A stretch of DNA of 64,000 nucleotides, from assembly GCA_021292105.1 (NCBI GenBank), contig CM037870.1, forward strand, positions 11,395,353-11,459,352, in the 5' to 3' direction. Of this stretch, positions 6,120 to 46,193 are shown in pieces. The notes below the pieces were generated by a model, which was not told the origin of the DNA, made no database searches, and worked only from the letters and a program-made list of their open reading frames with translations. Made by a program: the position numbers and the translations under genes. Source of the DNA: Anadara kagoshimensis (lineage: Eukaryota > Mollusca > Bivalvia > Arcoida > Arcidae). Numbering within the stretch: position 1 is the stretch's first letter; each line of letters begins with the position of its first letter.

Positions 6120-6505
6120 TAAATCGCGAAGTTTTTCATGGTCACTAATCGGATTAACTCATAGGTGAAAGCATTTGCTTTGTATGATTAAAGTGTCGTA
6201 ACTAGCTTATGTCTATTCAGAATTAGTTTCCCCGGGTATTTAACTACGTATTCAATTAAGCAATTTACACCCACCCACCCATCTTCAAGATAACGAAAAT
6301 GAACACGTCTTGATTATCTACACATACAACAGATTATTGGTACCAAATTTCATCTAAATCCATCAAGCCGTTCCCGAGATAGGCTGCATCATATGGTCCT
6401 GGCGGAATAATAATAAAAATAAAAATAATAATAATAAGAAGAAGAAACAGAACGAAAACAATATGATTCCCCACCTTCGGTGGTGGGGAATCATAATAAT
6501 AATAA
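6120..6505 (+). repeat. Dispersed repeat, copy A, ending in a hairpin and AAT tract
   Basis: About 385 bp that matches 8040-8432 in the same orientation at roughly 95 percent by eye. It begins AAATCGCGAAGTTTTTCATGG, includes the string CCAAATTTCATCTAAATCCA seen in many invertebrate repeats, and ends in an (AAT)n tract and a perfect hairpin, GATTCCCCACC / GGTGGGGAATC around TTCGGT. A third hairpin half lies at 6537-6553. The (AAT)n before the hairpin suggests a retroposed or Helitron-like tail; class not determined. Confidence 0.75.
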
Positions 6506-9464: not shown

Positions 9465-10750
9465 ATGAGTCAAGAAATAAGTGAAAAACCTCCAAAAAAG
9501 AAACAGAGGCAAAGAAGTAAGGCAAGTGACCAATCTGGCATACCAACGCCCAATATGGCGACCCCCAGTACAAATGTAAACATGAACAATGACACTAGTC
9601 TTCACAATCTACAGCAAGCTCAACCTGTTTATACCCAGTTATTACCTCCTAGTCAGTGTCTAGGGAGTCCTGGTTTACAGAATTATTCGCCAATTACTCA
9701 CCAATCACCAAGTGGTCAGTTTTACCAGATACACAACGTGCCATCCCCCCCCCCCCTCAACAAACTCAAGTCCCACCATGGGCACAGGACCTTTTAAGCA
9801 AAGTTGACTTTCTTGCTACAAAATTAAACAAATTGGATGCAATTGATTCGCGGCTATCAGTTCTAGATAATAAGATAGACTGTGTAAATAGAGACGTTAG
9901 TTCTGTTAAAGTCAGGGTAGAGGAATTAGAGAAGAGTTCACAGTTTATAAGTGAATCATTTGATGAATTTAAAGTTACTTCGTCTGAAGCCACATCCGAT
10001 AGACAGAAAATTCACAATGAACTTGCAACAATCTCTTATGAAAATAAAAAGATGAAAGATGAAATTTTAAGTGAGAATAAAAGATTTAAGGATGAAACAA
10101 ACAAATTGAAGGAGGAAATAGTTGACATTCAGGCAAGGTCCATGAGGGACAATTTATTATTCTTTGGTTTGGCTGAAAATAGGGGTGAAAACTGTAAAGA
10201 TCTTGTGTTGAATTTCTGTGAAGATGTTATGAAAATTGAAGGGGCAAGAGAAAACTTTGAACTTGATAGGGCCTATAGAATTGGAGCATTTCTAGTGAAC
10301 AAAATAAGACCAGTCGTTGTCAAATTTAATAGGTTTAAACAGAGGGAAGAGGTCAGGATGAAAGCAAAAATTCTAAAAGACACTAACTATGCTGTGCGAC
10401 AGCAATTTCCCAAAGAGATACATGAAAGAAGGAAAACGCTTGTGCCAATTCTAAAGAAAGCAAAAGAAAACAAAAGGGAAGCATACCTAGTGAAGGATAG
10501 GCTATATATAGATGGTGAATTATACAAGGGTCAGGTAGAAAGTGAAAAGACGACACAGATAACAAGGACAGATTCTACGAGAGGACGAGGAGGAACATCA
10601 AGAGGACGTGGAGGAACATCAAGAGGACGTGGAGGAAGAGGAGGACAAAGACAAAACAACTCGAACAGATTTGAGATATTAACAACACACACAACAGGGA
10701 GTACAGACATTTCAAGTGATCATAGTGACAGTGCAAGTGCTCCATTATAG
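9465..10750 (+). pseudogene. LINE-1 ORF1, RNA-binding-type protein, frameshifted
   Basis: Starts at ATG 9465 with a lysine-rich KPPKKKQRQRSK stretch, then a Q/P/T-rich linker. The frame breaks at a run of C at 9747-9756; the downstream frame continues from QTQVPPWAQDLL to a TAG at 10748-10750. After the break there is a long heptad-type coiled coil (about 9800-10130), then NLLFFGL, LDRAYRIG and RPVVVKFNRFKQREEV, which are typical of LINE ORF1 RRM-type cores, and a C-terminal RGRGGTSRGRGG array (10577-10650), an RGG-box RNA-binding tail. Its role would be to coat the element RNA. The C-run length may be an assembly error or a true loss. Confidence 0.85.
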
Positions 10751-13700
10751 CACGATCAGGAGATTATTAATAAAACTTCCATTGACACTGGTTTGAAATT
10801 TCTATGTTGGAATATAAATGGAGGATTGCAAGATAAACTTAATAATGCTGCATTTTTTAATTATATATGTACTTATGATTTAGCTTTTCTTTCAGAATGT
10901 TGGATTGATCATAATTTTTGTGTTAATATACCAGGTTTCGAATGTAAACTATTTCCCCTTAAGCGCTCTAAGAATGTACAAGGAGGTGGTATGTTTGTTA
11001 TGGTTAGAAATAGTTATTTAGATGTTGTTGAAATATGTGAAAATGTGTTGGATACTTTTGTCGTTTTACGTATTGACAAATCTGTCAATAGCTATGGTCA
11101 AGATATTTTTTTTGATTTGTGCATATTTACCCCCTGCAAATTCTTCTTTTTACAAGTATTATAATTGCGATATATTTTATGAATTACAAAATATACTTGA
11201 ATCTTACAGTGAAAAGGGCAAATCAATTATCGCAGGTGATTTGAACTGCCGAACTGCCTGTTTTGATGATTTTATTATGAGCGACGAAATTCCAAACACC
11301 ATTGAAAAACACGTGTCATGTTTATTTACATATGCAAATGACATTCCTTTACCCGTTCGCACCAATCCGGACAAAATTTCAAACTCCTACGAACCAAAGT
11401 TATTAAGTTTATGTAAATCAACTGGACTCCGAATTCTAAATGGAAGGCATCCTGATAAACTAGATAATGATTACACGTACAATGTAGCAAGAGGTTTTAG
11501 TGTGATAGACTATTTTATAACTACTCCGGACATGTTTGAATTTGTTCACAAGTTTATTGTGTCTAATTTCAATCAACATAGTGACCACGCCCCCCTTCAT
11601 GCTATTCTTAAACTGCGATTGGATGTTAACAACGACATTGACATTTACCCCACGATTGACCGATTTTACAGACCACGTTTTACAGTGAGATGGAGAGAAG
11701 AAAACAGCCAAAAATGTGTTGATTCGTTTCATAATCACAAGGATGAATTAGATGAATTTCTGAATAAAGCTAATTTCTCTGATCAAGCCAACACAGATGA
11801 GAGTACCGACACTTTTACAAATATTTTACATAGTGTATTTAACCCGTTTTGTTCAGTTTCACAATCAAATAGAAATAAGAACTCGTCAGTAAATAATAAA
11901 CGTACTCGATCTGAGGATAAGCCATGGTTCACTGAACACTGTAAAAACTTATATCATAAATATCTGCGCTCTATCTCTGCATTCAACAAAAATAAAAATA
12001 AGGAAACACATAAACAGCTACATGTGGACAAAAAAGAATATAAAGACTTAGAAGCAAAATTAAAACGTGCTTACCTAAGACAGGAAGGTGACATGCTATC
12101 TAGCCTCCGACAATATAATCCAAAACAGTTTTATTCAAAATTTTCACGCCGTAAAATGCGATCAACTACCGTTTCATTGGATGAATTTGGAAAACATTTC
12201 AGTTACCTGTTTAATAATTACACTACGGATAATTCACGTGACATCTCGGATAGTGATATTGACTCGGAAAATCAATCTATTTTTGGGGAATTGGATCAAC
12301 CTATAACAACAGAGGAATAGATAAATGTAAAAAATTTAAAACGGGATAAAAGCAACGGAGAAGAAGAACTCTTGAACGAATTTTTTATAGAATCTAGTCC
12401 CTTTATTTTACCCTACCTGTCATTTATATTTAATAAAATTTTTGATTCAGGGATTTTCCCATCGACATGGTCTTCAGTGGTTATTTTACCAATTTTTAAG
12501 AAAGGTTCCCAAAATGACCCCCGTAATTATCGGGGAATCAGTTTAATCAGTCATTTTTGTAAACTGTTTACTTCTGTAATCAACACTCGACTTCTACAAT
12601 GGGCAGATAACTATGATGTATTGACTGATGCCCAGTTTGGTTTTCGCCCAGGACTAGGGACGCGTGATGCAATTTTTGCATTGCATTCTATTATAACCAA
12701 ATCTTTACTTAGTAAAAATAGATTATATTGTTGTTTTGTAGATTTTTCTTGTGCTTTTGACTCTATAAATAGACAGTTTTTATTTTATAAGTTAGCTAAA
12801 GAGGGTATTAAAGGTAAAATATTATCAGTTGTTAAATCAATGTATGATAAAGTGAGAGGTTGTGTAACCGTTGATGGTTTTTATTCCCATTATTTCAGTA
12901 ACAAAATGGGACTCATGCAAGGGGAGGTAATTTCCCCAATACTTTTTTCTTTTTATATGAATGATTTAGAAATCAATTTTTTATCTCAATGTGAATGTTG
13001 TTATGAACAGCAAGAACTGTCGTTATTTCTATTAATGTATGCAGATGATTTAGTGTTATTTTCTGAAACAAAAGAGGGTTTACAAAATATGTTGGATAAT
13101 TTGTATCAGTATACACTGACTTGGGATTTAAGAGTTAATATAAGTAAAACAAAAGTAGTGGTTTTTCGAAATGGTGGCTATGTAAAAGATACAGACAAAT
13201 GGTTTTATTATAATAATGAACAAGAAATTGTTGATAAGTTTAATTATTTGGGTTTTGTTTTAAATTATAATGGCAAATTTTACGCTACACAACAACAGTT
13301 TGGGCTACAAGGTAGAAAGGCAATGTACTCACTCCAAAGTAAAACTAAAAATTTGTATTTGAATATTGAAACACAATTGTCTCTATTTGACACCTACGTG
13401 TCTAGCGTTTTATTGTATTCGTGTGAAGTTTGGGCTGTGCATAATGGTCCTGCTGTAGAGCGTGTACATTTAGATTTTTGTAAAAAGATTTTAGGTGTCA
13501 AATGTTCAACTCCAAATGCTATGGTATATTTTGAATTAGGAAGATTGCCTCTTTTTGTAATTAGAAAAATATGTATGTTTAAATATTGGTTCCACTTATT
13601 GCATACTAATAATTGTATTTTATCAAATGTTTATTAAGTTTTGTTATCATTAGGTGCAAAATATACATCTAAAAATTTCATTTGGACTAATTTTATAAAA

Positions 13701-29632: not shown

Positions 29633-30164
29633 TACTTTATGCAAATAAACTATTATTGCTATATTTACATATACAATACCCTTTTCATAAGATTTATTTG
29701 AAGTATGTCTCTTTTGATGCCCGCGCTTCTTTGTGTTTGTAGAACGTTCCCTGTGAAATGACTATCCCAATATTTTGCATCTTAACCCACGCTGCTTAAC
29801 AAACATACCGAACAACAAAAGCTTGTGGAAAAATGGTTTGTTTTCATTTTTCGTGAAAAAAAAATAATAATCAGTATTCCCGATCAGTTTATCTGTTTAT
29901 TGACCATTTCGAAAACACGACAGGGGAGATAACACCTATGAACGAAAACGAGGCTTGGGGGGCAAGCTACATCCGTCCAGCATAGTTGCAGCGTAGACTG
30001 ATATGACGATTGAAACGGAGAAAAAAAGACTTTTGTTGTACCCCAGGTTGTACAAAAGTCTTAAGTATATCACAATCTTCACAATTTATAATCCAAAAAT
30101 ATTTGTCAAAGAGTTTTGATTATTAAAGCATTTATTTGATGTATTTATTACAGCCGAAAATCAT

Positions 30165-30325
30165 CTGTCAAAATTACTGGACAGTAGACATCAAGAAATG
30201 AATTTCATCTTCTATAGAATTACTATAACATTTAGTGCATAATTTATCTTTTTTTCTATTTTTGAATAACGTCCAATTTCAATTTTTTATCTGTGATGTA
30301 ATTCTTAATCTGGTTATATTTAAAT
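30165..30325 (-). mobile_element. Old LINE ORF2 tail in the left arm
   Basis: Minus-strand sequence matches the fragment described at 45665-45840: knuckle-like residues with a downstream EDEIHFLM-type reading. It is part of the duplicated segment. Confidence 0.55.
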
Positions 30326-30330
30326 AATCA

Positions 30331-30582
30331 GGCCCCGGTTTCACTATCATTCCTTAGCTAAGATTTTCCTTAACTTGCAAAATTTCAAATCTTTATAATT
30401 TGGTTAATTTTGAAGATATGGAGGAATTTAATGTGTCATTTGTAAGATCACCTCTAGAATAAAACATTTGCATTTAGTTTTGATAAAAATATTCACCAGT
30501 AGTTCCAAAAAGAGATTAACAAAATTTGCTAAATTTAAGTTAAGGAAATTCTTAGCTAAGGAATGATTGTGAAACCGGGGCC
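30331..30582 (-). mobile_element. MITE family M252, copy 2, inserted in the left arm
   Basis: GGCCCCGGTTTCACTATCAT ... ATGATTGTGAAACCGGGGCC, 252 bp, reverse of 15927-16179. The right arm has the uninterrupted site AATAATCAGTTTTG (as its complement at 45680-45692). The ends allow a 2- to 3-bp duplication (CA). Confidence 0.9.
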
Positions 30583-30936
30583 AGTTTTGTTTTCCTTATA
30601 TCTGTGTATGGCTAATGTAAAATTTAATATTTTATAATGTATTAAAATCAGTTTGGCAGTCTTTTTTAAGGTAAAATAAACAAAAATTTTCGAAAGAATG
30701 AAACTTTACTCTAAAAATCTTCATATTTAATTTGATCAACGCCCGTGACATTTAATAGAGTCTTTAAAGTATTCTGTGTTCAACGTCGCAGATTATATAT
30801 ATTACATTTCTTCTTCCTTATTTAACTTTTTTTCATTTTAAGAGGTTCTGAATATATTAAACAAATTTAAACCGCACAAACATTTTAAACTGTTCATTTT
30901 GAAAATTTTATATTTTGATTATTTTTTATTATCATA

Positions 30937-32110
30937 AGTAGTATTGTATCCGCAGAATCCTACCTTGTTAAGCTGCGCTGCTGCGCCAATCTCAGTTTGC
31001 ATGACGTCAAAGGTGACAGGGTCACACCTGGAGGTGTTAAAGAAAGAGGGGAAGGTCCCGGATGTGAGGTTACCGGAAGGGAATCCCTAGGTCTAAGAAG
31101 AGTTCGAGAAAACCGGATCAAAGTAAAGGACTCCGAAGTCCGGGATGACCCCCGAAGGTCCGGAGTTGCGAAAATGCGCGTCGGGACTCGATCTTTCACC
31201 GAAAGTAGACATGTGATATACCGTCGTGTCCGGCTCAAAGAGAGAAATCGATCGTCGCTAATGCGGAGGTGATCAGACAAACCGTGACAGAGTTATCGCC
31301 CTTGAAAGGAATTTCGCGTATTCGCACTGGGTGAACCACTCGGCCATTGCGCGTTCCAACAACATAGAAGGATATTCCTCGATCTCCCGAACACGTGGAT
31401 ACCTCATTTGTACAAATCCGTCCAAAAATAAAGATGTGACGGCTCGAAAACGTTATTGAAAATGTCCCATAGACTTAACATGGAAACACTTCGGATCAGA
31501 TTCTGGGTGAACCACCACTCTATACGACATATCATTATACGCGTCTGATCGAGACGAATACGTAGAGATCTTGTTGTTAAAGACCGGTTGAGTCATAAGA
31601 AAGTTATTACAAAACACATTACTCTATGGGAAATCCCGTGTTAAAATTTCTCTATAGACTTATATAGGGAAATTGACAGATCGCCTTAAAGCACGAACCA
31701 CTCAACCTCCAGTAGAACTGAATACATTTTCAGATAGGTGTCATAAAAACGAGCATTTCGATATAAACGTCGTCGAAATCCATACAGAAATAAGCGAGAT
31801 ATAGGTGTTAGAAGTTGAAAAGTTTACGTCTTTGTTTACGAAAATTTGAATTTGAAATGCTGCATTCTGATTGGTCGAGAGGTTTTAGGCCCATAATTTC
31901 GTTATTATTCCACTTAGAGAGACGAGGGAGGTAACGTTAGACTCGGAAGACCGAGCCCCATACGTTGATGATAAAAGTCGAACTCGAAAAACGGACACGG
32001 AACGGATATAGTCCGGAATGCGCCGTCCCCTTCCCCTTGCCCTTCCCCTTCCCCTGAGAGCGAGGAGGAGGAGGAGGAGGGAGGGAGGGAGGAGGAGGAG
32101 GAGAAAGAGG
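30937..32110 (+). repeat. Left terminal inverted repeat of the Polinton-like element
   Basis: Pairs with 34788-33645. The inner end fades into a (GGA)n purine tract (32058-32110). The frames that run through it on both strands (30960-31280, 31937-32221) are mirrored in the right repeat with indels and are probably not genes. Confidence 0.88.
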
Positions 32111-32177
32111 AGGGAGGATCTCTTGTAAAATTATAAAAGTGAGTGATTTCATGAAGTTGCTATCATAATCGTTCGAC

Positions 32178-32594
32178 ATGACCGTGCGAATGGTTCTCAG
32201 CTCCAACGACTCCAAAGACATCTATCCCGATAACAAACCGTACGATTTCCGAGTCCATCTGTCTAAACCCTTTCAGTTTTTAGGAAATTGGGAAGTGGCC
32301 TTATTGGAATTTACCTTTCAAGGGGCCAAGAAATCGGTGGAATCGGAATTGTTTGTGTGTTGTGACTTGGTAGATAGTTCCATCGTAGGACACCGGGAAG
32401 TACCATTACTAAGACGGGTTTTCCTACAACGGAAACAAGAAAACTTGATTTACAATCAACCTTTAGGAGTACATGTGAGAAACCGCGAGTTTCAGGACGT
32501 TCACGTCTATATAAACACTTCCAAACACGAATTAGCTTCATTTCTCACTGGAGAAGTGACCGTGACACTACACGTCAAGAGAGTAATTTTTTAA
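32178..32594 (+). CDS. Penton-like capsid protein of the Polinton-like element
   Basis: 138 codons from ATG 32178. The start LSSNDSKDIYPDNKPYDFRV, then FLGNWEVALLEF, fits the N-terminus of single-jelly-roll minor capsid (penton-like) proteins in Polintons and adintoviruses, whose usual pattern is LPSN...YPDN...L...W-E-V-L-E. It is shorter than complete versions I recall, so it may be a partial or minimal form. It is intact, with TAA at 32592-32594, and the next frame begins 2 bases later, an operon-like packing. Assignment is by motif memory; structure comparison would decide. Confidence 0.6.
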   Translation: MTVRMVLSSNDSKDIYPDNKPYDFRVHLSKPFQFLGNWEVALLEFTFQGAKKSVESELFVCCDLVDSSIVGHREVPLLRRVFLQRKQENLIYNQPLGVHVRNREFQDVHVYINTSKHELASFLTGEVTVTLHVKRVIF

Positions 32595-32596
32595 CT

Positions 32597-32986
32597 ATGG
32601 CAGGTTCTACTTACGTCTCTGATCCAGAAATGTGGCGAAGATTCTACAAAAACATGTTAGGCGGAAAATTTCAACCGGAACAATACAGACCTAACCAGAC
32701 GGGAGGATCGGGAATAGCCGGTATGTATGCAGACAGGGCATATATGATTCCGGTTAATCCTCATGCTCAAAAAGAAGAAGGAGAGAAAATTGTCGTGGGA
32801 AAACAAGTCACGCCCATGGCAGCGGAGGTAGAAAGAGCCAGATCGGAATATAAAAGAAATATAGAGGAAGGGCACCCCGTGGTACCTCTCATCCAAACGG
32901 GTAATGGGAAGAGGAAACTGAATAAAGATCACCGAACAACAGTTAAAGTTCAAAAAGTGGGAGACAAATGGATGTCGTTCTTTTAA
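32597..32986 (+). CDS. Small virion-type protein of the Polinton-like element
   Basis: 129 codons from ATG 32597. Features: an aromatic start (MWRRFYKNML), a glycine turn TGGSGIAGMY, then YMIPVNPHA and VVGKQVTPMAAEVERA, and a basic C-terminus (KRKLNK, KVQKVGDKW). No enzyme motif. Small basic proteins with a central Gly-rich turn occur next to penton genes in such elements and may be core or minor capsid proteins; that role is inference. Intact frame. Confidence 0.5.
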   Translation: MAGSTYVSDPEMWRRFYKNMLGGKFQPEQYRPNQTGGSGIAGMYADRAYMIPVNPHAQKEEGEKIVVGKQVTPMAAEVERARSEYKRNIEEGHPVVPLIQTGNGKRKLNKDHRTTVKVQKVGDKWMSFF

Positions 32987-33017
32987 TACATTTCAATATC
33001 TGCAAGTCATCTTAACA

Positions 33018-33116
33018 GAAGGAGGAGGAGGAGGAAGAAGGAGGAGGAGAGGAGGAGGAGGAGGTGGAAGGAGGAGGAGGGAAGAGGAGGAGGAGGAGGA
33101 GGATGGAGGAGGAGGC
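33018..33116 (+). repeat. (GGA)n purine tract
   Basis: Almost pure GGA/GAA repeats between the second and third frames of the Polinton-like element, similar to the purine tract at the inner end of its left terminal repeat. Confidence 0.9.
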
Positions 33117-33174
33117 ATATATCCACCGTACATAAAAAAACTCTCATTTACAATTTACACGTTGAAGAGTCAGC

Positions 33175-33624
33175 ATGTATCAGTGTCCCATATGCAGTAA
33201 ACAATTTTCCAGAAAAGACAACATGCTTAGACACGTTCAGCAAAAACATCATGGATCAGTTGACTTATCCACGGCATCAGAGGACGTCATGTTTCATCAT
33301 CTCTTTACCATGCAGATTACTGCACCATCCATGGAAGGCAAAACAACGTGGCTACATCGTCTACTCGGCGAAAGGTATCGACTCATTGATCCAGTACCAC
33401 AAAGTATAATATACTGTTACTCTCAGAATCAACCTGCTTATGGCGATATCAAGACCATCATTCCAGACACAGAGTTTGTCAGAGGCATTCCGGACGAATT
33501 GGAAGGCGAGATATCTTCCATATGTTGTGGTCGGTGGTTTCCTCTATCTCTTCCAACCGAGGTCGCTTTGCTCCTCTACCTTCTTGATTTTGGAATCTTT
33601 CTATTTGTTGATACCGTGGGGTAA
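33175..33624 (+). pseudogene. C2H2 zinc finger + packaging-type ATPase start, truncated by an internal deletion
   Basis: ATG 33175. One C2H2 finger (CPICSKQFSRKDNMLRHVQQ, ending KHH), a short linker, then a P-loop region: FTMQITAPSMEGKT, with a degenerate Walker A (A instead of the usual first G), followed by PQSIIYCYSQNQPAYGDI and EFVRGIPDELEGE. This resembles zinc-finger P-loop ATPases of dsDNA viruses and related elements. The Walker B is missing: beyond about 33508 the plus frame loses sense, while the minus strand has an open reading with KRPRLEEIEETTDH. So an internal deletion appears to have joined the ATPase to the start of an opposing gene. Confidence 0.55.
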
Positions 33625-33644
33625 CCAAGGGATCTGCTCTTCCC

Positions 33645-34788
33645 CCTCCGCCTCCTCCTCCTCCTCTCTCTCAGGGAAAGGGCAAGGGGAAGGGGACGGC
33701 GCATTCCGGACTATATCCGTTCCGTGTCCGTTTTTCGAGTTCGATTTTTATCATCAACGTATGGGGCTCGGTCTTCCGAGTCTAACGTTACCTCCCTCGT
33801 CTCTCTAAGTGGAATAATAACGAAATTATGGGCCTAAAACCTCTCGACCAATCAGATTGCAGCATTTCGAATTCAAATTTTAGTAAACAAAGACGTAAAA
33901 TTTCCAACTTCTAACACCCATATCCCGCTTAATTCTGTATGGATTTCGATAAACTTTATATCGAAATGTTCGTTTTTATAACACCTATCTGAAAATGTAT
34001 TCAGTTCTACTGGAGGTCGAGTGGTTCGTGCGTTAAGGCGAGATGTCAATTTTCCTATATAAGTCTATGGAGAAAATTTAACACGGGATTTCCCATAGAG
34101 AATTGTATTTCCTTATAACTTTCTTATGACTCAACCGATCTTTACCAACAAGATCTCTACGTATTCGTCTCGATCAGACGCGTATAATGATATGTCGTAT
34201 AGGGCCAAGTGGTTCACCCAGAATCTGATCCGAAGAGTTCCCATGTTAAGTCTATGGGACATTTTCAATAACGTTTTCGAGCCGTCACATCTTTATTTTT
34301 GGACGGATTTGTACAAATGAGGTATCCACGTGTTCGGGAGATCGAGGAATATCCTTCTATGTTGTTGGAACGCGCAATGGCCGAGTGGTTCACCCAGTGC
34401 GAATACGCGAAATTCCTTTCAAGGGCGATAACTCTGTCACGGTTTGTCTGATCACCTCCGCATTAGCGACGATCGATTTCTCTCTTTGAGCCGGACACGA
34501 CGGTATATCACATGTCTACTTTCGGTTAAAAGATCGAGTCCCGACGCGCATTTTCGCAACTCCGGACCTTCGGGGGTCATCCCGGACTTCGGAGTCCTTT
34601 ACTTTGATCCGGTTTTCTCGAACTCTTCTTAGACCTAGGGATTCCCTTCCGGTATCCTCACATCCGGGACCTTCCCCTCTTTCTTTAACACCTCCAGGTG
34701 TGACCCTGTAACCTCTGACGTCATGCAAACTGAGATTGGCGCAGCAGCGCAGCTTAACAAGGTAGGATTCTGCGGATACAATACTACT
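33645..34788 (-). repeat. Right terminal inverted repeat of the Polinton-like element
   Basis: Inverse of 30937-32110, ending ...CTGCGGATACAATACTACT. Small differences (for example GTTAAAAGATCG against GATCTTTCACCG) show some age since insertion. Confidence 0.88.
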
Positions 34789-35195
34789 ATCATAATTTCA
34801 TTCTGTAAATATTTCTCGAAGTCAGAACTTCTGTAATAGAAAATTACTGGAACCGAGAATCTTTATTTCAAAAGTGATAGTTTTGACTTGTACGAAAGTG
34901 TATATTACATATTTTTACCCACAGGTAAAGGTTGTTAATTAATGTTGATAATCTGCATACCTTATCAACAGACGCGATAACGGAAGCAAATTCCAAATTC
35001 CCATTGGATCAGATGATAGTATATTATAAGTGGAAAATGTACCTACATGGTGTTAATCTCATTAACAGATTAATTAATTACCTTGATTTATGATGAATAT
35101 TATGATTCTGAATTACTAGTACCCACACTAGTTTTGAAACTGCCGTGAATTAATACTTCTAATTTCATGACTTCGTATAGTTAATGACTGTGTAT

Positions 35196-35200
35196 TCAAA

Positions 35201-35235
<35 letters not shown>

Positions 35236-35308
35236 ATTCATTCATTCATTCATTCATTCATTCATTCATTCATTCATTCATTCATTCATTCATTCATTCA
35301 TTCATTCT
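35196..35308. repeat. (AAAT)n then (ATTC)n microsatellite, left arm
   Basis: Mirrored by (GAAT)n at 45004-45105 in the right arm; lengths differ. Confidence 0.9.
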
Positions 35309-36126
35309 AAACTTACCGTTGAAGAGCACATGAAATAAAATTCTGTGACGTTGAACCAGCTACAATTATAGATGTTTGAACTATATTCTCAAAATGATTT
35401 TTAATTTTAATTTTTATTACTATTATTATTTTTTGTTAAAAAAGACTTTATAATGAAATAAAATTCAAATTCTTTAATTTCTAAAACGGAAAACTTTGGG
35501 TGTAAATTCTGTAACGATATGCGGTTACCTGTGAAATACCGGTAAAAATCCGGCGTATAATTTTGTCATCTTTAACGCAAATCGGAAGCAAAAAGTCGTT
35601 TATAAAAATGTAAAAATATCCTGAGAAACAACAAATGTCGAAAAATGTAACCATAATCAAGATTTTGGATACTATAAGGGAAAATTTTTAAACAAAAATA
35701 GCAGGAAAGACATCAGATATAAAAATAATTTTTACACCATAGGCACGGGATTATTTCGATCTTTTATAACTTATGATAACAAATTGATAGTTTAATGGTA
35801 AAAAATACTTTTTCAACGATTTTATTCACGTTCCTTCATAATTTAATTACTGTAAATCGGAACTTGAGCTATTCGGGGTCTATCGATGAGGAAAAGTTGT
35901 ACTATGGCAAGTGAGTGGTTTATTTATCTTTTTTAAATAGAAACAATTACTAGTTCTTACTCTCAACTAATAACTGTTTTTACTTATTTATATACCACTT
36001 TATTTGACACATAGGAAAGATATATCAACTACAGATAAATTTACAAACGTAGACATTTTTTTAACAGCCGTGTCAATTTTCGGTTTCCTTTTTGGTTGCT
36101 GTAATTTAAATAATTTCTACAAATAA

Positions 36127-36345
36127 ATGATTAATACACACTGTTTCACTTTCTGTATTATTTTATTTCTTTTATTCGTCATAATTGTTGGTGAAAACGA
36201 TAACGAAGAACTACTAATTCACAATTTTCGACAGCGTAACCGCATCTCAATGTAGTCTTTCTTCAGCAACCTGTTGGACTTGCCCCCCCACGAGACTTAA
36301 ACGAGACTTCGGTAGACGCGAGACTTTGTGTTTTCGAAATGGTGA
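36127..36345 (+). pseudogene. Left-arm copy of the small secreted-protein frame, with a premature stop
   Basis: ATG 36127 starts the same hydrophobic leader (CFTFCIILFLLFVIIVG) as the right-arm frame at 43136-42873, but CAG has become TAG at 36253-36255, after 42 codons. Further divergence follows at 36345. Confidence 0.55.
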
Positions 36346-36350
36346 ATGGC

Positions 36351-36918: not shown

Positions 36919-39120
36919 ATGGCGTCGACCTGCTCGAACGGGTCGTACCGACTCAGTGAAAGTAATGTATGTGGAAGTAATATAGAGCACCTTACATTGA
37001 CTGAACTTGTACCAGCTAGTTTAGATCATATGGTAGTTTCAAATGACAGTATTCAGACGGCATTAAACATGCCACCAGAGGAAAATAACAGTGATCCAAG
37101 TCAGGATAGCACAAATGGTAGGTCAAACAATGGCGACTGCGAACTGGACATTCCCGACCAACAAGGACAGTACTGTCAGTATGAAAACACACAAAATACT
37201 ATCGGTGCTAATCAACAATATCTTGAAAAACTAGATATAGAACTATTCAATTTGCCCAAAGATGACTATATTGATAAACTTTTGAGACTTTCAAACAGTT
37301 CTGAAAATATCATATCCTGGTATCGTACAGTACTAGTCACAAGAGCACAGTCAATCCCCCATTGTCCAACTGGTAAACTTGTCATGAGAAAATCTACCAA
37401 TAGAAGCTCTAGTGCTTTTAAATATGCTAAAGACTGTTTTAGTGTACATATGTTTATAATGGGTGACCCATCCGAGATAGATGAAGTATTCAGTAAGGGC
37501 AAACCCGGGGGAGAGCCCCTAGACACAACACAAGTTGGGGACCAATCATCCAGTAAGGTATCTGTTGACATTCATATCATGGTACACAATTTATTAGAAC
37601 GAGTGAATACTCTCACTGAACAACAAGAATCTTTTGCTAAAAAAGAAGAGAAGCTTGTAGATAGAATTAAATCGTCAGAAGACAAATATGACAAACTAAG
37701 ATTGGAATTCGATCGCTTTGTTTCACAACTTACACCACAGGTTGTCAAAATAGAATCTTTTATCAAAAGTTCCAAATCAGATCTATGTGATAAAAACGTT
37801 AGTACAGACTCCGAAAATTCTAAATTTAAAAGTCGAGTGAACGGACAACTGCGTTCTCTACAAAAAACAGTAGATGATTTAAAAAATAAAATAAAAAACG
37901 CATGTCCAAACACAAGTACTAAACCCATTGAGAGCCCCAGTCGTGAATACCTAAACAGCCACATTTCAAATTCCAGTACGCTACAACCAGTTATTACCGA
38001 CAGTGAGCGGTCAGACAATGTTCTAAGTCACATAAAAACCGTTATACACAACCACTCATCCGATAAAATGTGTGCTGAGAACTTATTCACGGTAAGCGAA
38101 TGCGTTCAGCAGGATTTCGGAAGCAGCTCTTTATCAAAGACTGACGAACCATGTGAACCAAGCGCATCGTCTAATTGCAGAAACAATACTGCGCCCACAT
38201 CTTCCACATCTGATGACGATAGTGATATCAATATGGATTGCAGTAATAGTATTATATCGACGCCTAACACATCTTTTGAACAGAGAGATATAACTATTGA
38301 TTGTGGCAATATGACTGTATTTGAGCCAAGCACACGTTACGATCGTAACGGCATTTCCTTGGATTGCGGTAATAGGACTGCATCCGAGACCAACTCACGT
38401 CACGATCGTAACGGTACTTTCTTTGATTGCGGTAATAGGACTGCGTCCGAGACCAACTCACGTCACGATCGCTATGGTATATTCCCGGATTGCGGTAATA
38501 GGACTGCATTCGAGACCAACACACGTCACGGCCGTAACGATATATTCCCGGATTGCGGTAATAGGACTGCTTCCGCGCATATATCGCGTCCTATCGATGA
38601 TTGCGCTACTCGTAAGAAACAACCAAATCAGAGTAACATCTATCGAAATTCATCAACGAAACAGGATCCAAGTGCGTTATCAAATAATAAAGAAATGAGT
38701 GATCAAACCCTTGTTATTGAGAACGACACTAACGATTACCGAAAAAGGAATGTAACTCTGGGTGAAAATTCTAGACTACAAATTAACATTACACGACAAG
38801 GATCCAAGGATGCTGGTAACGAACCTAATATCTTTGTTGGATACATACCTAGGAAGCGAACTGCACGCTTTTACCTGGGAAACATTGGATTAGAATCAAC
38901 ACGAACTGGTATCATTCATTTCCTCCAAGACAATGGCGTCCGCGTGACTCAGTTTACCCTTTTTAAAAGCAAATGGGGTCGTGTTTCGGGTAAACTAAAT
39001 GTAAATATGGGTGATGCTGATACTGTACAGCAGCCAGGATTCTGGCCTGAAGGTGTCATATGTAGACCATGGCTAAACAGTCGTGAATGGTATGATAAGC
39101 TCGAAAGAGAGCAAATTTAA
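36919..39120 (+). CDS. LINE-2 ORF1, 733 codons, open
   Basis: ATG 36919 with a plausible start (MASTCSNGS). Coiled coil in the middle (about 37600-37720 and 37860-37900: KEEKLVDRIKSSEDKYDKL). A tandem array of a 63-bp (21-residue) unit, DCGNRTASETNSRHDRNG, repeats five times from 38299 to about 38590. The C-terminal part has RFYLGNIGLESTRTGIIHFL and KWGRVSGKLNV, an RRM-like fold seen in ORF1 proteins of mollusc LINEs, and ends at TAA 39118-39120. Expected role: binding the element RNA. It is the only LINE frame here without a break. Confidence 0.82.
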   Translation: MASTCSNGSYRLSESNVCGSNIEHLTLTELVPASLDHMVVSNDSIQTALNMPPEENNSDPSQDSTNGRSNNGDCELDIPDQQGQYCQYENTQNTIGANQQYLEKLDIELFNLPKDDYIDKLLRLSNSSENIISWYRTVLVTRAQSIPHCPTGKLVMRKSTNRSSSAFKYAKDCFSVHMFIMGDPSEIDEVFSKGKPGGEPLDTTQVGDQSSSKVSVDIHIMVHNLLERVNTLTEQQESFAKKEEKLVDRIKSSEDKYDKLRLEFDRFVSQLTPQVVKIESFIKSSKSDLCDKNVSTDSENSKFKSRVNGQLRSLQKTVDDLKNKIKNACPNTSTKPIESPSREYLNSHISNSSTLQPVITDSERSDNVLSHIKTVIHNHSSDKMCAENLFTVSECVQQDFGSSSLSKTDEPCEPSASSNCRNNTAPTSSTSDDDSDINMDCSNSIISTPNTSFEQRDITIDCGNMTVFEPSTRYDRNGISLDCGNRTASETNSRHDRNGTFFDCGNRTASETNSRHDRYGIFPDCGNRTAFETNTRHGRNDIFPDCGNRTASAHISRPIDDCATRKKQPNQSNIYRNSSTKQDPSALSNNKEMSDQTLVIENDTNDYRKRNVTLGENSRLQINITRQGSKDAGNEPNIFVGYIPRKRTARFYLGNIGLESTRTGIIHFLQDNGVRVTQFTLFKSKWGRVSGKLNVNMGDADTVQQPGFWPEGVICRPWLNSREWYDKLEREQI

Positions 39121-39134
39121 ATATTGTAAATAGA

Positions 39135-42100
39135 TTGTTTATTTCTTTAATTATGTATATTGTTTATTGTGTTACTTTACATTGTGTTTACTTTTACTGT
39201 TATATGATTTTGAATCTACTATCATGGAATGTCAGGGGTGTAATGTCATCTGCCATCTGTATAAGCGATATGCTTTCAAAGTATAATTGTGACATAGCCG
39301 TTTTATCTGAACATAAGCTTCAAAGCTTCAACAAAGACTTTCTAAACACAATTGACAAGAATTACACCAGTGTAGCAAGTTGTGACTCTAGTGCAGATAG
39401 CTATGTTAGATGTGGTAAGTCAGGTGTAGCTATACTTTATAAGGTATCGCTTTGTAGTAATATTATACCAATAACAGATAATTTGTCTGACAGAATAGTG
39501 GGTATTCAGGTAAAAGATAGTCAGAACTTACCTCTTTTTATATTTGGTGTATACTTACCTGCAGATAATTGTATTGATACTTACAGGTATGAACTAGATA
39601 CACTAGAGACTATGTACACTTATTATAAACAATACGGTCATGTAATTATTGCCGGCGATTTCAATGCTAGCTGTAGACCTTTAGATAATGGTAGGTCAAA
39701 TGTATATAAATCATTTGATTTTGCCAATTTTTGTATAATGTTGATTTAATCCCCATTAACACATCTGACAAATGTAATGGTAGTAGTTACAGTTATACAA
39801 GAACATGTACAATGATAGATTATGTCCTCACTGACCAAGTTATCTTTGAACAACTCAAATGCTGTGAAATCCCTGTTGAAGGTACGTTCGGAAATACATC
39901 TGATCATCTACCAATTTTTGTGTCATTAGACTACGAATTAAAGATATTCAAAGACGGAACTAGCAAACACAAATGGCCAGCATGGCACAAAATGGATGAA
40001 AAAGTTCTGGAACGTTATAGAAGATCTCTTGATGAATAATTAGACAGTGTAACATCAGACCAAATGAGCGATGTTAATGATCTCAATAATATAATAGTAA
40101 ACGCGGCTCTTCAAGCATCGCGAGCATGTGTTCCACTATCGTCATATAACCCTCACACAAAGCCATACTGGAACAAAGACGTTAAACAGGCGCATAGTAA
40201 CGAAAGAAAGATGCGAAACATATTGGCTATTGGATGGTAAACCACGAGGGTTTCAACATGTGTCATATGCAAATTACAAAGCTGCAAAAGACTGTTTCCG
40301 ACGAGTACAGAAAGCCGCAAGCGAAAAACATTTGGAGGAAACATATAGTGATATTGACAGAGCAGCCGGGCTTGACATTCGGTTGTTCTGGAAGTTAATC
40401 AATGCTAAACGTAAAAAGACAAACAAAGTTTACCCAGAGATCATAGTTAATGGCGAAATGTTCACCAATCCCGAAGAAGTCACAGGCGCGTTTTCATTAT
40501 ATTTTGAACAAGTGTATGAACGAAGTGATGGTCAGAATTTTGATGGTGACTTTGAGCAATTGGTGGAAAATGCGATAGATAAACTGCGTAAAGAAAATAT
40601 CAAAGAAGATGAACTACTTCCTGGAGGTTTAATATTAGCGTCGGAAGTAGCCACACAAATCAAAACACTCAAAAGACGTAAGGCTGCTGGGCATGACAGA
40701 ATACAAAATGAACACTTACTATATGCTAGTGAAACATTCTACAAATATGTAACATGCCTGTTCAACAACATCGTGAAAACTGGTAGAATACCACTGGAAT
40801 GGAAAAACAGTATCATCGTCCCTATACACAAAGGAAACGGTAAATCAACAACCGATCCAAATAATTACAGACCTATCTCGTTACTACCGACTATTTTCAA
40901 ACTATTTGAAAAAATTATTTATGAAAGACTCACAAAGTATAACGTCATAAACCAACGCTTTCCAAACGTCCAGCAACAGGGGTTTCAAAGGAATTTGAGT
41001 TGTTCAACAGCATCTTTTAACTTGCAAGAAGCTAATCTTTATAATATTGAACAGGGTAGCAAAGTTTACGCTGCTTTCCTTGACAGCCAGAAAGCATTTG
41101 ATACCGTATGGCGCAATGGTGTCTTATACAAGTTAGATCAATTAGGCATAAAGAATAAGCTTTGGCATATTATAGATGACTGCCACACAAACACCAGAGG
41201 TTGTGTTGTCTTTGGTAACAACCATTCAGATTGGTTTCCCGTGGAGCAAGGCATCAGACAGGGTGGCGTCTTATCTACCCTACTGTATTGTGTCTTCATA
41301 AATGATTTATTGAACATACTTGAAAATCATTCAACTTCTATATGCATAGGTAATATAAAAGCTGGTAATACAGCCTTTGCAGATGATATTACCTGCTTAA
41401 GTATCTCCCCAAAAGGTCTTCAGTCTATGCTTGATGCTTGTTATCATTATGCTTGTCAGTGGAGATTTAAATTCAATTCTAACAAGTCTGTAGTGATGAT
41501 ATTTAACAAGAGGCACAACTCTCATCAACATGGAGAAGCGAAATTCAGCATCGGCGGAAATGAGATCAACAGTGTTAATCAAACGGATCATCTTGGTATT
41601 AAGTTGGACTCTAAATTTCAATCTATAGAGCGGACTCTAGACAGATGTAAAAGATGCCGTAATTCATTCTTTGCATTAAATGGAATCGGGACATCCAATC
41701 TAAACCCAGTAACAACGATAAACCTTTACAAAAAAGTTGTCATACCAACGGTCTTATACGGTTGTGATGTCTGGTATAATCTGAAAACTGCTGACTATAA
41801 TGCACTAAACAAGCTACAACACTTCATAGTCAAATACATCCAAAGACTGAATCCAAGAACTCGATCTGACATTGCAGAAAGTATGTGTGGACTGTACCCC
41901 TTAACAGCCGAAGTTCAAAAGCGAAAATTACTCTTTTTAGGAAAGTTATGCTCAATGAACAATATGTGTCTAACAAAGCAAATATTTAAGAGAAGATTAT
42001 TTGAACATTTTCTATGCCAGAAATCGAGCACGGGTTTTATCCCAGAAATCTGCGATATACTGCATCAGTACCAACTGCAACACTATTTACAGAACTACAT

Positions 42101-42643
42101 TAATTATGGCCTCTTTCCAACAGTTAATGAATGGAAGAATATAGTCAGCAAAACCGTCAAAACCGTGCAGTTTAACGCTTGGTTACAAAGAACAATTATT
42201 CACCCGGATTTCAATAGATTCTTGTGTCTTCATAACACCGACAGATCACCAGCTCTTGCATGGACAATCGCCAAGTGTAACAATGAACTAGAACTTTGCT
42301 ACTTTATTATACAATATTATGGGCAAATCCGTTTCAATCTAATACAACACGTTACTGCAACGCATGTTTTTCTGACATCACTGAAGAATCCATTCAGCAT
42401 GCGGTGTGCACATGCCCTGCGACGGGCCGACACAGAACCGCATTTCTTAATTCCGTGTACATGTTTGACAAAGACTTACACAGTTACATCATCAATCTAC
42501 AAACAAGCAGTAAAGAAAACGTTGTCTGTTTCCTCCTATCGGGAAGATACCAACACGCCGAATACACCCGAAATTGGACATTATCGGTCTTTAGATTTAT
42601 AAGACATTGTATTGTTGCATGTAGTATCAAGCACCAACCATAG
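39135..42643 (+). pseudogene. LINE-2 ORF2, endonuclease-reverse transcriptase, frameshifted
   Basis: Likely start ATG 39153 or 39204 (MILNLLSWNVRG). Endonuclease motifs: LSWNVRG, VLSEHKL, FGVYLPAD, IIAGDFNAS, then after a frameshift near 39738 MIDYVLTD and TSDHLPIFV. A TAA at 40037-40039 and a frameshift near 40215 follow. RT: SIIVPIHKGNG, NYRPISLLP, FLDSQKAFDTVW, QGIRQGGVLS and AFADDITCL near 41380. The C-terminal knuckle CNACF...H-x3-C lies after another shift near 42335, in a frame ending at 42643. Same enzymatic role as in LINE-1. Confidence 0.86.
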
Positions 42644-42872: not shown

Positions 42873-43136
42873 CTATATGACACACCATGCTGTACACCTT
42901 GTGCTCACGGAATATTCACGATTTCGAAAACACAAAGTCTCGCGTCTACCGAAGTCTCGTTTAAGTCTCGTGAGGGGGGGCAAGTCCAACAGGTTGCTGA
43001 AGCAAGACTGCATTGAGATGCGGTTACGCTGTTGAAAATTGTGAATTAGTAGTTCTTCGTTATCGTTTTCACCAACAATTATGACGAATAAAAGAAATAA
43101 AATAATACAGAAAGTGAAACAGTGTGTATTAATCAT
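42873..43136 (-). CDS. Possible small secreted protein, 87 codons, unknown
   Basis: ATG at 43136. Residues 5-22 form a strong hydrophobic leader, followed by an acidic stretch (ENDNEELL), a dibasic RLKRDFGRR and four cysteines in the last 45 residues. That is the layout of a secreted precursor, but the family is not recognised and no splice or expression evidence exists. It lies at the inner end of the right palindrome arm; the left-arm copy is truncated. It may be chance: the arms are otherwise non-coding. Moderate doubt. Confidence 0.3.
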   Translation of the reverse strand: MINTHCFTFCIILFLLFVIIVGENDNEELLIHNFQQRNRISMQSCFSNLLDLPPLTRLKRDFGRRETLCFRNREYSVSTRCTAWCVI

Positions 43137-43717
43137 TTATTTGTAGAAATTATTTAAATTACAGCAACCAAAAAGGAAACCGAAAGTTGACACGGCTGTT
43201 AAAAAAAAGATGTCTACGTTTGTAAATTTATCTGTAGTTGATATATCTTTCCTATGTGTCAAATAAAGTGGTATATAAATAAGTAAAAACCGTTATTAGT
43301 TAAGAGTAAAAACTAGTAATTAAAATAAATAAACCACTCACTTGTCATAGTACTATCGATAGGCCCCGCCGAGTAGCTGTCCGATTTACAGTAATTAAAT
43401 TATGAAGGAACGTGAATAAAATAGTTGAAAAAGTATTTTTTACCATTAAACCATCAAGTTTGTTATCATAAGTTATAAAAGATCGAAATAATCCTGTGCC
43501 TATGGTGTAAAAATTATTTTTATATCTGATGTCTTTCCTTCTATTTTTGTTTAAAAAATTGCCTTTTTTCACCCTTTTTCCCTTATAGTATCCAAAATCT
43601 TGATTATGGTTACATTTTCGACATTTTTTGTTTCTCAGGATATTTTTACATTTTTTTATAAACGACTTTTTGCTTCCAATTTGCGTTAAAGATGACAAAA
43701 TTCTAGGTCGGATTTTT

Positions 43718-44773
43718 CCTGTAGTCTCACTTAGCATACATTTTGAATTTCAAGGTAAAAAGGTAGGATTTTTATGTATGCTAAGTGAGACTTGAACATG
43801 GTTGTGGACCATGGAGAGAACAATAGAAATTAATTACAGGTAAACTAAAGTCTGTTTCAAAATAAAATGACATTAATGCAGATCATACAAGAACCATACA
43901 ACCAATTTAACAAGAATTAAATGTGTTCAATTCTATTTTAATCTGAATACTGAAAACTGTTGAAAATGTTAGCCAATATCTGTTTAGAAATTTTATAATA
44001 ATAATATCATCAAAATTATTTTTTTAATATTTACATTTTCAAATTGTGAAAAAGACAGAATTTTCACTATAATTAGCAGGTTATTAATTAGAGCTAAATT
44101 CATTTACCAATAAATAACAAGAGGCCCATGGGCCTTAACGCTCACCTGTGACCTTGACCTTTGAACCCATGAGCTTCATTCAAATACTAAAATGATAATT
44201 AGGCCAATATTCTAATATACATCCCTATACAAAAAGTTTATAGTTTTTGAGATAAATAATCATTTCAGTACTTGTTTGTATCTGATCTTGACATTTGAAC
44301 CCATGTCCTTCATTCATATATCAAAATGACCATTGTGCCAGTACCAACAATATTCTAATATACATGCCTAAGTTAATAGTTTTCAATATAATTAACCATT
44401 AAGATATTTATTCGCATCTGTGACCTTGACCTTTGAACCCAATACCTTCATTCATATATCAAAATGATCGTTAGGATAATACCTAAAATATTCTAATATA
44501 CATGCCTATACAAAAAGTTTATAGTTTTTGAGATAAATAATCATTTCAGTACTTGTTTACATCTGTGACCTTGACCTTTGAATTCATGACCTTTATTCAT
44601 ATATCACAATGACCATTGGGCCATTACCTACAATATTCTAATATACATGCCTATACAAAAAGTCTATAGTTTTTTGAGATAAATAATCATTTCAGTACTT
44701 GTTTACATTGTGACCTTGACCTTTGAACTCATGACCTTTATTCATATATCAAAATGACCATTGGGCCATTTTT
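43718..44773 (-). mobile_element. Pearl/HINE-like element in the right arm
   Basis: Absent from the left arm, where the site is one ATTTTT (complement at 35543-35548); here ATTTTT stands at both sides (43712-43717, 44768-44773). One end has a hairpin, AGTCTCACTTAGCATACA (43723) and its inverse (43775-43792), loop 34. The other part is a tandem array of five units of 135-145 bp, each with GTGACCTTGACCTTTGAAC (44148, 44283, 44420, 44565, 44710). A GGCCCATGGGCC palindrome precedes the array. Bivalve pearl elements and other Helentron-associated elements have such a core array and terminal hairpin. Strand shown is a guess from the hairpin. Confidence 0.65.
44148..44767. repeat. Five-unit tandem array, 135-145 bp period
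   Basis: Each unit runs GTGACCTTGACCTTTGAAC, CATGACCTTCATTCATATATC, AAAATGACCATT, ATTCTAATATACATGCC, TATAGTTTTTGAGATAAATA. The units differ by about 10 percent by eye. Confidence 0.9.
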
Positions 44774-45664
44774 ACCGGTATTTCAAAAGTAACCGGCATA
44801 TCGTTACAGAATTTACACCCAAAGTTTTCCGTTTTAGAAATTAAAGAATTTTATTTCATTACAAAGTTTTTTTTCACAAAAAATAATAGTAATAAAAATT
44901 AAAATTGAAAATCATTTTGAGAATACAGTTCAAACATCTATAATTGTAGCTGGTTCAACGTCACCGAATTTTATTTCATGTGCTCTTCAACAGTAAGTTT
45001 AGAATAAATGAATGAATGAATGAATGAATGAATGAATGAATGAATGAATGAATGAATGAATGAATGAATGAATGAATGAATGAATGAATGAATGAATGAA
45101 TGAATTTCTTTATTTGAATACACAGTCATTAACGATACGAAGTCATGAAATTAGAAGTATTAATTCACGGCAGTTTCAAAGCTGGTGTGGGTACTAGTAA
45201 TTCAGAATCATAATATTCATCATAAATCAACGTAATTAATTAATTAATCCGTTAATGAGATTAACACCATGTAGGTACATTTTCCACGTATAATCATCTG
45301 ATCCAATGAGAAATATTTACAGAATGGAATTATGATAATAAAAAAAATCAAAATATAAAATTTTCAAAATGAAAAGTTAAAAATGTTTGTGCGGTTTAAA
45401 TTTGTTAAATATATTGAGAACCTCTTGAAATGAAAAAAAAAGTTAAATAAGGAAGAAGAAATGTGATATATATATAATTAGCGACGTTGAACACAGAATA
45501 CTTTAAAGACTATTAAATGTCACGGGCGTTGATCAAATTAAATATGAAGATTTTTAGAGTAAAGTTTCAATCTTTCGAAATTTTTTGTTTTATCTTACCT
45601 TAAAAAATACTGACAAACTGATTTTAATACATTATAAAATATTAAATTTTACATTGGCCATACA

Positions 45665-45840
45665 CAGATATAAGGAAAACAAAACTGATTATTTATAACC
45701 AGATTAAGAATTACATCACAGATTAAAAATTGAAATTGGACGTTATTCAAAAATAGAAAAAAAGATAAATTATGCACTAAATGTAATAGTAATTCTATAG
45801 AAGATGAAATTCATATCTTGATATCTACTGTCCAGTAATT
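45665..45840 (+). mobile_element. Old LINE ORF2 tail in the right arm
   Basis: Reads DKLCTKCNSNSIEDEIHILI, the C-x2-C...H knuckle context of LINE ORF2 C-termini, with stops nearby. Mirrored at 30165-30325. Confidence 0.7.
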
Positions 45841-46193
45841 TTGACAGATGATAGAAATAAACTATTTTCGGCTGTAATAAATACATCAAATAAATGCTTT
45901 AATAATCAAAACTCTTTGACAAATATTTTTGGATTATAAATTGTGAAGATTGTGATATACTTAAGACTTTTGTACAACCTGGGGTACAACAAAAGTCTTT
46001 TTTCCCCCGTTTCAATCGTCATATTCTACGCTGCAACTATACTGGACGGATGTAGCTTCCCCCCCCCCCCAGCCTCGTTTTCGTTCATAGGTGTTATCTC
46101 CCCTGTCGTGTTTTCGAAATGGTCAAGAAACAGATAAACTGATCGGGAATACTGATTATTATGTTTTCATTTTTCGTGAAAAAAAATAATAAT

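Follow-up and report, generated by a model that had tools for sequence, protein, structure and literature searches.

The window, a stretch of 64,000 nucleotides of the Anadara kagoshimensis genome, contained an insertion of 3,852 bp with long inverted ends at positions 30937-34788. It was bordered by the target-site duplication ATCATA, read in the sequence at 30931-30936 (left) and 34789-34794 (right), and its terminal inverted repeats covered approximately 30937-32085 (+ strand) and 33644-34788 (- strand). The outermost 30 bases of both ends were perfect reverse complements. Overall the two inverted ends were 95.4% alike and differed by 3.8% over 1 kb, with 4 mismatches at 500 positions in the outer 500 bp and 34 at 497 in the next stretch. 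The insertion lay in the left arm (29859-36347, + strand) of a surrounding inverted repeat, the right arm of which (42914-46167, - strand) was without it. Alignment of the arms located an empty site with a single TATGAT (ATCATA on the - strand) at 45331-45336, and the joined flanks of the insertion aligned with this arm across one ATCATA and 23 bp further (one mismatch), the right flank being matched over such a short stretch only because an indel between the arms follows. The first-pass annotation had described a 6-bp duplication with a paralogous empty site, and this is what the locus contains.

Three frames on the + strand, previously described as penton-like, small virion-like and the start of an ATPase, were confirmed. 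The penton-like frame (32178-32594, 138 aa) was intact. For its product we predicted an all-beta structure (mean pLDDT 73) with an adintovirus protein as best viral match (TM 0.72); in PDB nothing matched at E 0.001, and TNF-type and enterovirus capsid chains ranked highest. The adjoining virion-type frame (32597-32986, 129 aa) combined an N-terminus typical of a Polinton lineage termed A with the C-terminal tail of the small element family described below. The third frame encoded a C2H2 finger and the first 112 of 447 residues of a packaging-type ATPase (33175-33510). This frame continues to 33624, but 33511-33624 is not native sequence because 33500-33619, at the rearrangement junction, is an inverted (- strand) match to a later part of that gene (residues 302-341). 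When the whole window was searched at E 0.01 with lineage A queries, none of integrase, polymerase, major capsid, protease or PC4 was matched. The earlier claim of a non-autonomous Polinton relative was right.

A family of small elements and its genes

In the 1.1 Gb of the host genome we counted 28 ATPase loci of a family of ~5.6-kb elements (small A), not counting two loci where one stretch is at 85-91% and others are at 63-73%. The gene set consisted of four frames, encoding a penton, a virion protein, a C2H2 packaging-type ATPase and a 109-aa protein (P109). Judged by its sequence, the window element is a rearranged copy of this family. A deletion-inversion would have removed its P109 and the C-terminal part of its ATPase, either prior to, during or following its insertion into an arm of the pre-existing inverted repeat. 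Twenty further copies were fetched (rows 2-21 of the penton-score ranking, 77-97% identity), 16 of them small and 4 large. None of the 16 small copies gave a match to INT, MCP, PRO, PolB or PC4 at E 0.001. Ends of the AGT...ACT type with 6-bp duplications were present in 10 of the 16, and two more had 6-bp duplications at other, longer ends. A third end type was seen in L014, L023 and L027. The insertion architecture is not due to chance, since many further loci show it with different 6-bp duplications, and an assembly artefact was ruled out by the many loci, the paired ends and the differing duplications.

The aligned small copies had one architecture in common, with shortened versions of about 4.4 kb each in L010 and L026. 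By our rules, frames were intact for the penton in 9, the virion protein in 8, the ATPase in 5 and P109 in 8 of the 16 copies. The two ends differed by 0-1.8% over ~1 kb within seven small copies, and by a mean of 17.6% between different copies, which indicates mostly recent insertions of long-separated lineages. The two ends were less alike in L028 (3.5% over 1 kb), and in the outer 400 bp of L016 (4.3%) and L028 (9%).

Across the small copies, dN/dS (intervals from codon bootstrap) was 0.20 (0.13-0.31) for the penton, 0.28 (0.16-0.46) for the virion protein, 0.26 (0.20-0.35) for the ATPase and 0.45 (0.24-0.98) for P109, the weakest case of the four with an upper bound of almost 1. Codon positions 1+2 differed by 2.0-3.9% and fourfold sites by 5.3-14.4% among 10 small copies, in which noncoding DNA 3' of P109 differed by 9.5%. 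In the closest pairs (dS < 0.03) dN/dS was 1.03 for the penton (9 pairs) and 0.96 for the virion protein (13 pairs); for the three closest ATPase pairs it was 0.41 and thus not 1. Gene trees of small copies conflicted in part, which indicates exchange and makes the pairwise counts less sharp. Low overall ratios together with values of about 1 in the closest penton and virion pairs point to genes selected during spread and decaying after insertion, and these codon comparisons show purifying selection on small-element genes in the spreading lineage. Near-neutral closest pairs would also suit a passive non-autonomous Polinton in which the ends alone matter, the four genes are cargo, and polymerase and integrase act in trans. 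So would the lack of any mobility gene match in the window or the 16 small copies, the loss of ATPase and P109 sequence from the window copy and the shortening of L010 and L026. We consider this explanation unlikely in view of the ratios of 0.2-0.3 for three genes, the single architecture and the repeated pairing of one ATPase module with matching pentons reported below.

The ATPase matched Pox_A32 below its cut-off, and its homologues carry Pox_A32 and Adeno_IVa2. Its loop reads APSMGGKT in L011, as in a third Polinton lineage (C), whereas in most of the aligned relatives it is GPSGSGKT or AGMTGSGKT. We regard it as a packaging-type ATPase of putative activity. A profile of the ATPase yielded 14 pattern matches in IMG/VR, none of them confirmed, and nearly all zinc fingers among the PDB matches listed (60 of 116). 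P109 showed weak similarity in a single comparison (18% over 74 aa, E 0.002) to a 103-aa protein of large elements. The name pX was rejected for P109, since PX denotes the penton in Polintons (PMC4028283).

Small elements as chimeras of two Polinton lineages

The first-pass annotation had proposed a genome search for longer relatives, and longer copies encoding polymerase, integrase and capsid-type proteins indeed had the ends of the window element. Two 15-kb Polintons with ends matching small A were examined. Inverted ends with 6-bp duplications were present in two large copies, and the outer ~570 bp of the window element's left end matched one end of the lineage A loci L021 and L022 at 85%. 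The two ends of L021 differed by 12.6% over 400 bp. The window penton frame was 51-87% identical to frames that lie next to integrase and capsid-type genes. Among large relatives we found rve and Chromo matches (L022), a PC4 match and, adjoining two of them, DNA_pol_B_2 in L030 and a polymerase match in L029. Peptidase_C5 (adenovirus-type protease) was above cut-off in the lineage C locus L036 and not above it in L020; the top PDB rows for the protease candidate were adenoviral protease, but at E of only 0.066-0.11. The major capsid candidate, assigned solely from its size and its place in the gene order, had no Pfam hit above cut-off and no PDB match.

Large copies of lineages A and B carried a penton, a virion protein and a protease-type gene of their own. 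An ATPase match of ~30% identity was present in all four lineage A loci and in two of three lineage B loci (L032 and L033), and was absent from 10 kb of L031. One could imagine that the two kinds of element are segments of one multipartite virus and are both required for particles, and the common ends and differing gene sets fit this. Having their own versions of these genes, however, the large elements of A and B should not need those of the small element, and we regard this explanation as highly improbable.

Ends, penton and virion N-terminus of small A matched lineage A, and its ATPase and P109 matched lineage C. Plain deletion of a 15-kb Polinton was rejected, as the ATPases of large lineage A and of the small element share only 27-42% identity, depending on the piece. 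A second small family, small B (three copies, one of them read), combines the same ATPase module with a lineage B penton. The small A and small B ATPases differed at dS 0.54-0.57 (dN/dS 0.12-0.13, again speaking against passive cargo), and the virion tail was common to both families. Their pentons were at dS 2.1 or unmeasurable from each other, compared with 0.24-0.47 (A) and 0.67-0.91 (B) from their own large lineages. The outer ~100-150 bp of the small B ends matched sequences bracketing pentons at three loci other than L031-L033, with pentons 50-56% identical to that of the window; from these short end matches we infer that lineage B may be the helper of small B. Large-element ends fell among small-element ends. 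A monophyly check on the gene trees was negative, and we rely on a branch with support 100 that separated large from small copies in the penton, virion and joint trees. The tail found in the small-element virion protein was also present in Tegillarca granosa proteins. Together, these sequence comparisons show that the small elements are chimeras of two Polinton lineages. The earlier description as a Polinton deletion derivative mobilised in trans holds as far as Polinton descent and non-autonomy are concerned; it is incomplete because the ATPase matches another lineage and the genes are under purifying selection, and the direct parent is a repeated ~5.6-kb chimera.

A defence kept by the host, in which small elements would persist since their penton and ATPase hamper infection by Polintons, would likewise be compatible with purifying selection and chimeric capsid-type genes. 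Antiviral roles are claimed for protist virophages and PLVs (PMC8547959, PMC12220804). Selection here acted on a moving lineage, however, the closest penton and virion copies look neutral, and most copies have nearly identical ends and are hence recent, which makes host defence improbable.

A possible satellite system and known counterparts

We propose that the window element is probably a broken member of a ~5.6-kb satellite family of animal Polintons. The window element and the 16 small copies gave no match to replication genes, and the small elements had termini in common with the presumed helper (in small B over short stretches only) and carried their own genes under selection, least clearly so for P109. 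Against this reading, the small copies are mostly decayed, and none of the four large lineage A copies examined had a complete set of intact frames, so that we encountered no living lineage A helper. The DNA polymerase, integrase, major capsid protein and protease would come from a helper Polinton, of lineage A in the case of small A and of lineage B in that of small B, and the helper's polymerase and integrase would read the satellite ends. Penton and virion N-terminus would have to fit the helper capsid and might for this reason be exchanged with the helper, while the satellite's own ATPase, P109 and virion tail would direct packaging of its DNA. Packaging and helper use are what we infer, and the swap of ends and penton suggests helper switching. 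We are evenly divided on whether animal Polintons here have their first satellite system, in which a conserved module for packaging (ATPase, P109, virion tail) would track different helpers and take up their ends, penton and virion N-terminus by recombination.

To our knowledge, virion formation by animal Polintons is an open question. A parasite of theirs that retains nothing but vertex and packaging genes, selected and helper-matched, would make little sense unless particles are made. If true, the satellite reading would provide indirect genomic evidence for particle formation, a question that becomes testable via protected 5.6-kb DNA, and a eukaryotic counterpart of capsid-stealing phage satellites.

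With Polinton/Maverick elements and adintoviruses the small elements share the 6-bp duplication, AGT...ACT inverted ends, penton and a putative packaging-type ATPase. They differ in that the window element and the 16 small copies had no polymerase, integrase, major capsid or protease match, in their size (about 5.6 kb compared with 15-20 kb) and in being a chimera of two lineages. Of the Polinton hallmarks, the window element had the 6-bp duplication with inverted ends and the penton, and neither it nor the 16 small copies showed a match to polymerase, RVE integrase or adenovirus-type protease, or, as regards the double jelly-roll MCP, to the capsid-type proteins of the large relatives. Adintoviruses are defined by PolB with an OTU-like domain, a recognisable Hexon and an rve integrase with chromodomain (PMC11071296); nothing in the window element matched PolB, integrase or capsid-type proteins.

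In the giant-virus world, transpovirons and virophages are satellites. Both are named, for example, in PMC8877843. Like them, the small elements would be small DNA elements dependent on a bigger virus, but their presumed helper is a Polinton integrated in an animal genome, and their capsid and packaging genes are limited to penton, virion protein and ATPase. Among phage satellites, P4 and cf-PICI redirect capsids. PICI are likewise described as redirecting capsids (PMC6431247). The small elements would resemble phage satellites in size, in packaging-type genes and in the presumed exploitation of a helper capsid. Unlike phage satellites, they are eukaryotic, belong to an adenovirus-like lineage and have exchanged penton and ends in a helper-matched manner.

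The window insertion and its small relatives

The first-pass annotation had proposed an insertion with a perfect 6-bp duplication and a paralogous empty site, and this was borne out. The element comprises 3,852 bp at 30937-34788 (termini AGTAGTATTG...CAATACTACT) with ATCATA on both sides, and the other arm of the surrounding inverted repeat carries a single TATGAT (45331-45336). Past the duplication, 23 bp of the right flank align to the other arm with one mismatch before an indel between the arms, so that the duplication pins the empty site precisely while the matched right flank is short. Three frames lie in the element: a penton of 138 aa, a virion protein of 129 aa and an ATPase cut off after residue 112 of 447. 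The junction toward the right end is made up of a segment of that ATPase gene, residues 302-341, in inverted orientation. Its ends are 95.4% alike, and their inner halves have different best matches. The differences are unevenly spread, with 4 in the outer 500 bp versus 34 in the following 497, so these inner halves may derive from different sublineages. A LINE-type element lies between the arms (36919-42602; 733-aa frame, endonuclease 39135-39749, reverse transcriptase 40128-42602), and a second reverse transcriptase-bearing element is found at 9656-13637 (RVT_1 at 12372-13637).

A penton search of the host genome (1.115 Gb, 36 contigs) scored 150 of 193 candidates, and its counts are lower bounds. 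We compared 10 kb around rows 2-21 of the penton list (penton identity 77-97%) and found small elements at 16 of the 20 fetched loci and large ones at four. Ten small copies with AGT...ACT-type ends measured 4.4-5.8 kb. The small elements encode, partly decayed or deleted, a penton, a virion protein, a C2H2-ATPase (447 aa) and the 109-aa protein P109; integrase, polymerase, major capsid, protease and PC4 gave no match in any of the 16. Duplications of 6 bp flank L009, L010, L011, L012, L015, L016, L018, L025, L026 and L028. L023 and L027 (7.1-7.2 kb) have them too, but at other, longer ends, and no credible one was found in L013, L014, L017 and L019. Simple repeats aside, the spacer upstream of the ATPase can be aligned across the window and 14 small copies, as can the sequence downstream of P109 across 10 copies, which speaks for one origin of the small copies. 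Contig C3, about 6% of the genome, holds 41 of the 150 scored penton rows (hand count; some copies form two rows). Two end pairs without a nearby penton row, C3:68928046-68934098 (6.05 kb) and C1:41454592-41458724 (4.1 kb), are read as further shortened or different relatives. A 300-aa frame adjoining the decayed copy L013 (6654-7556) appeared DDE-type transposase-like by eye.

Large relatives and shared ends

Two large relatives of lineage A, L021/L029 (15.75 kb, duplication CCTAAC) and L022/L030 (15.09 kb, duplication TGCGGG), matched polymerase, ATPase, integrase, penton, virion, capsid-type, protease-type and 103-aa proteins and PC4. Their inverted ends of about 350-410 bp match those of the window's family (small A), and their ATPases share 27-42% identity with that of the small elements. 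The capsid-type gene is a major capsid candidate by position and size alone; the protease-type gene is putatively a protease on the strength of its relative in lineage C, where Peptidase_C5 scored above its cut-off. None of four large lineage A copies had every frame intact.

For the second small family (small B), a 647-bp end query against the host genome gave 17 candidates with 32 matches and recovered its three copies. The outer 30-150 bp also gave 76-97% matches bracketing pentons at C3:15.83-15.84 Mb (12.7 kb apart; penton 56% to the window's), C3:32.55-32.57 Mb (23.4 kb; 55%) and C12:13.68-13.70 Mb (16.8 kb; 50%). We infer that these are elements of the large lineage B, whose loci L031-L033 are absent from the 32 matches. 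The small A copies L023, L027 and L014 have different, internally repetitive outer ends (in L023 and L027 the inverted ends, AGCAGCATG..., extend for about 2 kb), possibly a third end type derived from another helper.

Chimeric composition and selection

An ATPase search of the host genome gave 98 matches (94 of 533 candidates scored). Counting by hand the rows at ≥81% identity, we took at least 28 loci, the window among them, as small A and at least three as small B, most assigned from ATPase identity. The 78% group includes L036, a lineage C Polinton in which ATPase and P109 (both 76%) accompany penton (27% to the window's), virion, capsid-type (39%), protease and BIR genes. The ATPase and P109 matches mark small A as a chimera, joining lineage A-type ends, penton and virion N-terminus to a lineage C-type ATPase and P109. 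Small B, read in L035 and known from matches alone on C6 and C12 (each within paired ends 5.6-5.7 kb apart), combines the same module with a lineage B penton and virion N-terminus (82% over 717 bp to L032; 80% to L031 and L033). In both families nucleotide similarity to the large element breaks off near virion codon 80, and among seven aligned proteins the tail beyond is common to small A and small B only. BIR/IAP-type genes were seen in lineage C (L036:3620-3955, minus strand, above the Pfam cut-off) and lineage B (L031, reverse complement, 6169-6660, judged by eye from the frame).

Pairwise comparison of 17 copies, one of them the window's (ATPase, 16 copies; P109, 13), gave a dN/dS of 0.20 for penton, 0.28 for virion, 0.26 for ATPase and 0.45 for P109, with rough intervals, since pairs are non-independent and the small copies seem to recombine. 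Closest pairs gave about 1 for penton (9 pairs) and virion (13 pairs) and 0.41 for ATPase (3 pairs); between small A and small B, the ATPase value was 0.12-0.13. By our criteria (neither frameshift nor stop, and >92% of codons), frames were intact in 9/16 pentons, 8/16 virion proteins, 5/16 ATPases and 8/16 P109.

Architecture, shared ends, chimerism and selection are matters of observation. As helper-dependent satellites, the small elements would use polymerase, integrase and capsid in trans, the ATPase and P109 would be the satellite's own packaging parts, and penton exchange would serve matching to the helper.

Separate histories and known systems

ATPase synonymous distances were 0.54-0.57 between small A and small B and 0.82-0.93 between small elements and lineage C. 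Penton distances were 0.24-0.47 (small A-lineage A), 0.67-0.91 (small B-lineage B) and 2.1, 3.1 or beyond measure (small A-small B); judged by these unlike distances, ATPase and penton have separate histories. Large-element ends are interspersed with those of different small copies (L022-L015 3%, L021-L016 4.8%, L020-L018 8%). Over about 1 kb, the two ends of a copy differ by 0.006 (L009), 0.016 (L010), 0.000 (L011), 0.001 (L012), 0.002 (L015), 0.018 (L016), 0.003 (L018), 0.035 (L028) and 0.038 (window), and over the outer 400 bp by 0.043 (L016), 0.09 (L028), 0.000 (L022) and 0.126 (L021).

Among 47 virion homologues, three have the small-type tail (P0133 and P0167, both Tegillarca granosa, and P0135), 27 another tail, and 17 lack the motif. 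Given this tail in Tegillarca granosa, the small type probably predates Anadara kagoshimensis. No satellites of animal Polintons were found by title or abstract in the literature searched, which excluded subscription papers; related work is PMC4028283, PMC6431247, PMC11071296 and PMC8504770. Among named organisms, the ATPase family is represented in Mytilus and the coral Oculina.
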